In this document: one piece after another, positions 12,660 to 13,856 of the stretch
Layout: every line of letters starts with the position of its first letter
Position numbering within the stretch: the first letter of the stretch is position 1
Origin: a virus
Reading direction: 5' to 3' (one strand)
Length of the DNA: 59,881 nucleotides
IMG/VR virus record: IMGVR_UViG_3300046001_001163
Location: 1-59,881 of that record
Program-made: the position numbers and the translations under genes
The notes under the pieces: generated by a model
The model's database searches: none
What the model saw: only the letters and a program-made list of their open reading frames with translations
What the model was told of the DNA's origin: nothing

Positions 12660-12885
12660 GGCTTAAATTTTGTCCACATCAAATTGATGCCAGTTATTCG
12701 ATTGTGAGCGTGTTGATTGCGTTATGACCTAGTAGATTATTTCCTGAGTGGAGATTGATGCCAGTTATGAGTTCGTGGGCGCGTTTGATTACGTTTGACG
12801 GCGTTTTAGACTTTGCTTGTTTGTACGTAGTACTTGAGCTCAAGTCTACATCTTTTTTTTTCGCTTGTCAACACTTATTTTCACG

Positions 12886-12905
12886 ATGTGGACACCTGTC
12901 CACAT
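12886..12905. promoter_or_regulatory. Palindromic operator, longest copy
   Basis: ATGTGGACA-CC-TGTCCACAT: perfect 9-bp half sites with a 2-bp centre, the longest member of the family. It ends 5 bp before the -35 hexamer of the promoter at 12911. Confidence 0.75.
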
Positions 12906-12910
12906 GCTAT

Positions 12911-12939
12911 TTGTTGTAGTATAACGTGGTTGATATAAT
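12911..12939 (+). promoter_or_regulatory. Promoter next to operator
   Basis: TTGTTG, 17 bp, TATAAT. The perfect -10 and the adjoining palindrome suggest a regulated start. The next gene is more than 900 bases away, so it may drive a leader, an untranslated RNA or a replication primer. Confidence 0.5.
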
Positions 12940-13087
12940 ATTCTCTTAGCTATTAGGTTTATTATATAAACTAAACTTTACCATAAGGCTCTACAGACCG
13001 CATTATACCGTTGACGAAATAACATAAGAACACCGTTTGACATATAAAACACCGTTAAGCTATTGATTTATATAGACGCCGTCAGTT

Positions 13088-13132
13088 TTGTGTCAAAAAC
13101 GTGTGTCATTCTACAGGGTTTTTTTGACACAA
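13088..13132. repeat. 12-bp inverted repeat TTGTGTCAAAAA
   Basis: Arms 13088-13099 and 13121-13132 are perfect reverse complements, separated by 21 bases. Related TGTGTCA/TGACACA words with T/A tracts lie at 13593 and 13774 in the same region. Confidence 0.7.
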
Positions 13133-13219
13133 GAATTGGGCTAAGTGTAAAGTGGTTGTAGAATCGCAGACCAAGTGTTTTAGCCGTTTGTCTCTTTTTA
13201 CAGTGTAGCATAAGGCTTC

Positions 13220-13371
13220 GTTGTGCAAACCATGCAAGCATTTTTGGAGGGTATGCCCCGTAGAAATACTTTTTTTAAAGACCTAATAGACCTCGGCAAG
13301 AGCAGTTAAAAATAGTCGGCTAATCCGGAAATACCCCTATACCCTAAATATGCTTGCATGGTTTGCACAAC
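13220..13371. repeat. 22-bp perfect inverted repeat
   Basis: Left arm 13220-13241 (core TGTGCAAACCATGCAAGCAT) and right arm 13350-13371 are exact reverse complements separated by 108 bases. Inside, AGGGTAT (13248) and ATACCCT (13338) can extend pairing. There is no terminal T-run. It could form a cruciform, a long RNA hairpin, or mark two facing protein-binding sites. Confidence 0.8.
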
Positions 13372-13382
13372 AATATAAAAGT

Positions 13383-13444
13383 ATTCTACAATATATACTA
13401 CTACTACTACTAATAATAATAATAAAATATAATATAAATAAGTA
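13383..13444. other. AT-rich triplet tract (unwinding element?)
   Basis: Consecutive TAC and then TAA triplets run into AAAATATAATATAAATAAG. Almost pure AT just beyond the large inverted repeat; such tracts melt easily and serve as DNA unwinding elements in origins. Confidence 0.5.
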
Positions 13445-13722
13445 GTTAGACAGTTTTACTTTTCATGGAATGAAACTCAGAAATGAAAAAGCCCTGTTTT
13501 TGTGTACACTGGACATAATGTAGAGTGCACAAATCCGACAGCGTCTATAACCCTCCAGACCAAGTGTTTTAGGCACCTCCAGCGATGTTCCATTTTTGTG
13601 TCACAACCAAATCCCCTAATGTAAAGTGTAAAGTTAGCACCCCAAAAACATCCCCATTGCACCCATTATTGCCCTTAACATTACATATAAAGCCGTATCA
13701 TTCAACACAACATCGCTACAAC

Positions 13723-13749
13723 TTGACAAAATACCCTAATCATTATACA
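13723..13749 (+). promoter_or_regulatory. Possible promoter for HTH-repeat gene
   Basis: Consensus TTGACA followed after 15 bp by TATACA. The spacer is short, so this is tentative, but it lies about 110 bases before the gene at 13857, which has no better promoter. Confidence 0.35.
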
Positions 13750-13856
13750 GTACGTTTACATTATATTTTTCCGTTTTTTGACACAAAACTGCGTCAGAAT
13801 CATTTAAGAAATAATAGAAATGAAATCCCACAACCTTAACCAAAAGAGTACACACC

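Follow-up and report, generated by a model that had tools for sequence, protein, structure and literature searches.

Genome organization and the non-coding region

We analysed a phage record of 59,881 bases, in the following called the window, which represents an aquatic phage of about 60 kb. The genes for head formation and packaging (terminase, portal, and head genes) are located on the minus strand, and the replication genes (family-A polymerase, SNF2 helicase, and primase-helicase) on the plus strand. A preliminary description had proposed a candidate replication origin in what it called the only long stretch without genes, and this uniqueness was confirmed: the non-coding region (NCR) between the plus-strand genes g120 (12030-12611) and 13857-14747 comprises 1245 bp, compared with 464 and 406 bp for the next longest gaps. 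The terminator reported at its upstream border was also verified.

A DNA-level search of the NCR against phage records yielded no match, and the nearest annotated records (DSL-LC04, HTVC023P, and Rollin) had no comparable clusters of 8-mers within the stretches examined. In the near relatives L006 and L008, the NCR is mostly kept, with DNA identities of about 88% and 68%, respectively. Searches with the g120 product at the levels of protein family and fold remained without a match. The features of the region and of the candidate initiator gene are as follows:

12030..12611, plus strand: g120, protein of about 193 aa from a family of about 200 aa, located immediately 5′ of the putative origin in about 40 loci
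12612..13856, no strand assigned: the whole NCR, putative origin region, 1245 bp, longest gap of the window
12622..12655, plus strand: intrinsic terminator at the end of the g120 operon (15-bp stem, then a T run), which relatives conserve
13088..13095, plus strand: left iteron TTGTGTCA, kept in L006; L008 keeps its first part
13125..13132, minus strand: left iteron TTGTGTCA, with TGACACAA kept in L006 and L008
13167..13183, plus strand: 17-nt direct repeat CAGACCAAGTGTTTTAG, copy 1, largely kept in L006 and L008
13220..13245, plus strand: inverted arm 1, tandem iterons TTGTGCAA / CATGCAAG
13246..13345, no strand assigned: inter-arm core of about 100 bp, in which the central sequence of the relatives is only partly recognisable (GGCAAGAG)
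13346..13371, minus strand: inverted arm 2
13393..13441, no strand assigned: AT-rich triplet tract, presumed unwinding element, almost unchanged in L008
13500..13505, plus strand: right iteron TTGTGT
13527..13532, minus strand: right iteron TTGTGC
13556..13572, plus strand: 17-nt direct repeat CAGACCAAGTGTTTTAG, copy 2, kept in L006 and L008
13596..13603, plus strand: right iteron TTGTGTCA, invariant in L006 and L008
13779..13786, minus strand: right iteron TTGTGTCA, invariant in L006 and L008
33005..35857, plus strand: candidate initiator, AEP primase-DUF927 helicase fusion, assigned from profile matches and motifs
35507..35839, plus strand: C-terminal winged-helix domain (CTD) of this protein, proposed iteron reader

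Iterons and inverted repeat of the window

All four copies of the word TTGTGTCA in the 59.9 kb fall within the NCR, and no more than two copies were obtained in any of 400 shuffles. The TGTGTCA words of the preliminary description are real, with five copies in the gap versus three elsewhere in the window. The consensus of the window iterons is TTGTGYMA. The long inverted repeat, 13220-13245/13346-13371, was likewise upheld, as it scores 23, whereas none of 60 shuffles exceeded 12. In L008, its arms show compensatory changes, i.e. TTGTGCAAACCATGCA is replaced by TTGTGTAATCTGTGCA, which is matched on the opposite arm. The AT-rich triplet tract is also real, and the 70 bases 3′ of arm 2 have an AT content of 89%. 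In the window group, each arm contains only a single clear TTGTGY site and the right cluster is wider than in the other mapped loci; the iterons of the window are also more degenerate and more widely spaced than those of the relatives. The iterons of the window group are defined by clustering and conservation because the group is represented by a single initiator sequence.

Several other elements had been counted as parts of the origin and were rejected on the basis of shuffles, chance counts, or absence in relatives. The ACCGTT word has three copies, a number that is reached in 18 of 400 shuffles, and L008 keeps only the first copy. Promoter-like elements are not enriched (11 found versus 12.8 expected by chance). 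The supposed downstream iterons are a 15-nt tandem array, CAAACATCTACCCGA, at 14775-14844, 3′ of the 13857 gene, with four or three copies in near-identical phages and none in L006 and L008. The iterons were assigned to the TTGTGYMA words and to both arms of the hairpin, and not to the ACCGTT words or the 15-mers.

The same architecture is found in distant relatives

Relatives were gathered with TerL and with the MoxR-like ATPase as search queries, resulting in about 100 loci. The gene order TerL-TerS-g120-[NCR]-g155-MoxR-VWA is kept in about 40 syntenic phage loci, with one architecture at the same position. Conservation of the repeats in relatives was a point on which the preliminary description had made its proposal depend. 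Most of the distinct gaps contain an inverted repeat that spans about 136-162 bp (around 147 bp). Each arm consists of two tandem iterons of about 8 bp, 8 bp apart, and the arms are inverted with respect to one another. The iteron word varies from phage to phage (TGTTCTA, TGTTCCA, or AATTCCA, and TTGTGYMA-like in the window group), and the arm words recur outside the arms, e.g. AAATTCCA with 12 copies in L049 and L053.

In 27 mapped loci, including the window, the layout is left cluster, arm 1, core of about 100 bp, arm 2, AT stretch, and right cluster, with a set of short iterons on each side of an AT-rich tract. The 70-bp stretch after arm 2 has a mean AT content of 77% in these loci versus a background of 58%, and the right cluster is located at about +70 to +150 bp. 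The inner distances between the arms group at 113-116, 123-127, and 136-139 bp. These groups are separated by roughly a turn of the helix, as expected of protein-bound DNA; the probability of such a grouping by chance is 0.0006 for distinct values, although the phages are related. The alignment, from which alone the inter-arm motif was described, revealed a conserved centre of the core in about 28 loci, GCAAG..AGTGCAA (roughly GCAAG..CAGTGCAA), with G-rich and then C-rich flanks. The L059 contig ends (position 1) within the first hairpin arm, and other contigs also stop near the putative origin, perhaps an assembly effect.

Iteron type co-varies with the C-terminal domain of a primase-helicase

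The candidate initiator encoded at 33005-35857 matches DUF927 with an E-value of 1.3e-17, above the Pfam cut-off, and the NCBIfam Cch1 profile with an E-value of 1e-7, below the curated cut-off. It contains the DxD and SGxGxHxYW motifs of AEP primases as well as Walker motifs of a helicase. Fusions of AEP primases with DUF927 are known from bacterial mobile elements (PMC5862659).

Homologues of the primase-helicase were retrieved from 23 relatives, and a Mantel test was performed for the 20 phages with a known iteron type, with iteron classes assigned by the analyst. The difference in iteron type correlated with the distance between the CTDs when the other primase domains were controlled for (partial r 0.61-0.65, p 0.0005, 2000 permutations). 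With controls for the AEP and helicase domains, g155, MoxR, and VWA, which remove phylogenetic dependence only in part, the value was 0.66 (p 0.001, 1000 permutations). The residual partial r was about zero or negative for AEP, the helicase domain, g155, and MoxR, and weaker for VWA (0.31), so that the CTD is the best tracker of iteron type among the proteins and domains tested. An initial signal of g155 vanished after the CTD was included, and g120 had no iteron-specific signal (partial r -0.19 to 0.09). Iteron type thus follows the CTD of the replicative helicase and not the gene neighbours.

For further loci, the iteron was predicted from the CTD class alone before the gap was inspected. 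Four of these loci had enough sequence to be checked, and prediction and finding agreed in all four. AATTCCA was predicted for L059, and six copies of AAATTCCA were found; TGTTCYA was predicted for L051, L083, and L085, and 10, 10, and 15 copies, respectively, were found. The predictions and the co-variation are not fully independent results because the four loci belong to the set of 20 phages. Judged from these sequence comparisons, the CTD of the primase-helicase apparently reads the iterons.

The AlphaFold2 model of the CTD is winged-helix-like, with a mean pLDDT of 80. Its top structural match is the C-terminal domain of SCCmec Cch (5DGK, Z 10.1), followed by that of SaPIbov1 Rep (8TCH, Z 9.6). 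The next match is TcpK, the oriT-binding accessory protein of the pCW3 relaxosome (Z 8.6), after which the value falls to 7.1; generic winged helices reach 5.0 or less. Taken alone, the Foldseek E-values for the CTD are not significant (0.03-0.05). The P4 alpha domain is absent among the fold matches listed, which speaks neither for nor against kinship. The C-terminal domain of SaPI Rep is the part that recognises its iteron origin, and Cch, a DUF927 protein, is a relative of SaPIbov1 Rep (PMC7581432).

A predicted replication origin and the alternatives

The claim of an iteron-type origin was therefore retained on the basis of the conserved architecture, the CTD co-variation, and the four predicted loci, with a different choice of repeats as iterons. 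In our view, the phage very probably has its replication origin in this region, where the CTD would bind phage-specific iterons, the helicase would melt the AT tract and load onto it unaided, and the primase would make primers. Direct support was obtained for the architecture, its conservation, the clustering of the iterons, their co-variation with the CTD, and the predicted CTD fold. The binding, melting, loading, and replication start that we infer would proceed as follows. The CTD of the AEP-DUF927 primase-helicase would bind the left tandem pairs in the inverted arms plus the right set, and the helicase assembled on both iteron sets would melt the AT tract between them. It would load itself at the melted tract, the fused primase would then lay primers, and these would be extended by the family-A DNA polymerase of the phage.

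The GC-skew check that had been suggested gave a minimum near 10-15 kb, which we regard as uninformative because the genes change direction in the same place, at 10.9 kb. The third-position skew is lowest in g120, a plus-strand gene left of the predicted origin (-0.05 versus 0.01 to 0.17 in genes that should be transcribed in the direction of fork movement), a value that is consistent, if weakly, with bidirectional forks.

The inverted repeat could instead form a hairpin of about 150 nt in a structured non-coding RNA with covarying stems, in line with the long regulatory RNA of the preliminary description. The predicted fold is indeed stable and the arm sequences covary between phages. However, both strands fold equally well (z -4.5 and -5.0), and in the consensus fold of 28 elements (RNAalifold) only the arms pair and the core is unpaired. 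The arms are tandem iterons, further copies of which are found beyond the hairpin in both orientations, which explains the covariation of the arms without an RNA, and the helical spacing of the arm distances is that of protein-bound DNA. An Rfam search resulted in sub-threshold matches only, with no family at the gathering score, and we regard an RNA as very unlikely. It is highly improbable that the region serves transcriptional control only, with operators and promoters for the early operons. The terminator upstream, the gene start downstream, and the GGACA-N4-TGTCC palindrome at 12890, with six more in the early region, are compatible with this function, but the promoter-like sites do not exceed chance, the iteron type tracks the helicase CTD rather than the neighbours, and the AT tract between the iteron sets would be left unexplained. 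Transcription control may be layered on the origin region.

The preliminary description had pointed to the DNA-binding protein encoded next to the region, and both this triple-HTH-like protein (13857-14747) and g120 are candidates for the iteron-binding initiator. Both genes adjoin the region, g120 does so in about 40 loci, and HTH-like segments recur within the 13857 product (phrog_3377). Yet the 13857 product was detected in only a minority of the syntenic phages, and g120 shows neither co-variation with iteron type nor a fold match. We thus consider this assignment quite unlikely and the primase-helicase encoded 19 kb away the likelier binder; the 13857 product or g120 may have an accessory role. 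Hardly any credence can be given to a DnaA-dependent origin, which we rejected because no recognisable DnaA box lies beside the putative trios. The CTACTACTA tract resembles DnaA-trios (3′-GAT-5′; PMC8287927), but 12680-13856 contains no DnaA box even when one mismatch is allowed, and the AT tract of many relatives lacks such triplets.

Comparison with known replicons

The predicted origin is most likely of the PICI/SaPI type, i.e. an iteron origin at which an initiator helicase that loads itself starts replication, here in a phage. The SaPIbov1/PICI origin has an AT-rich region with a set of short iterons on either side (PMC6092414), the same layout as here, and the initiator helicase SaPIbov1 Rep has an iteron-reading C-terminal domain (PMC7581432), to which the CTD fold corresponds. 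In contrast, the SaPI/PICI origin lies directly 3′ of rep, whereas the predicted origin at about 13.4 kb and the candidate initiator gene at 33.0-35.9 kb are about 19 kb apart here. A PICI is a satellite without capsid and TerL genes of its own, and the phage, with its own TerL, portal, and head genes, is therefore no PICI. It also has its own DNA polymerase, its primase is fused to the helicase, and the iterons of its left set form two inverted tandem pairs that enclose a core of about 100 bp. The origin would thus work in the PICI/SaPI manner, but as a variant that belongs to another sort of element.

SCCmec Cch is a self-loading helicase of the same DUF927 family with the most similar C-terminal domain, but the window protein falls below the Cch1 cut-off and its gene neighbourhood is unlike SCC. 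Cch is not known to have a primase fusion. As in the origins of phage lambda and iteron plasmids, the iterons are located next to an AT-rich melting region. In those systems a separate initiator (O or Rep) recruits the helicase; here, the initiator would be the helicase itself. The P4 alpha protein is also a primase-helicase, with an origin-reading C-terminus and short repeats, and differs in that the helicase of the window is of the DUF927 type.

Iteron sets that flank an AT tract, together with an initiator helicase, have so far been described mainly for phage-parasitic chromosomal islands. A Cch/SaPI-Rep-like replicon in dozens of aquatic phages, the complete ones of about 60 kb, would extend the type beyond satellites and SCC elements, and it bears on the question of where satellites acquired theirs. 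The origin would also be a predicted one for a phage group to which nothing in the searched public phage records is closely related, and about 20 initiators paired with their natural iterons represent a small recognition code. Possible, but rather doubtful in our view, is that the region represents a new origin subtype, in which two inverted tandem-iteron arms, helically phased around a conserved core motif of about 25 bp, shape the DNA into a looped platform onto which the primase-helicase is loaded. The motif would serve as contact or priming site, and the subtype would share an ancestor with PICI origins. If the common ancestry were true, the replicon may have passed from such phages to satellites or in the opposite direction.

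Additional repeats of the early region

Further repeats were observed in and around the NCR. The palindrome GGACA-N4-TGTCC, the operator-like element of the preliminary description, is present in near-identical copies at 11913, 12890, 14038, 14980, 15623, 16781, and 20475; all seven lie in the early region (11.9-20.5 kb), two of them within genes, and none in the remaining 50 kb or so. The set resembles dispersed operators or stoperators. Direct repeats of about 30 bp (TTGATGCCAGTTAT..GTGNGCGNGT) are located at 11837, 12683, and 12754, the latter two in the NCR, and are conserved in L006 and L008. In addition, a 63-bp repeat (89%) at 11092-11154 and 11933-11995 is located 5′ of early genes and kept in relatives. 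It carries a promoter-like word of the GGTAAAG type on the minus strand and is related to the consensus sigma-70 promoter at 14872-14900.
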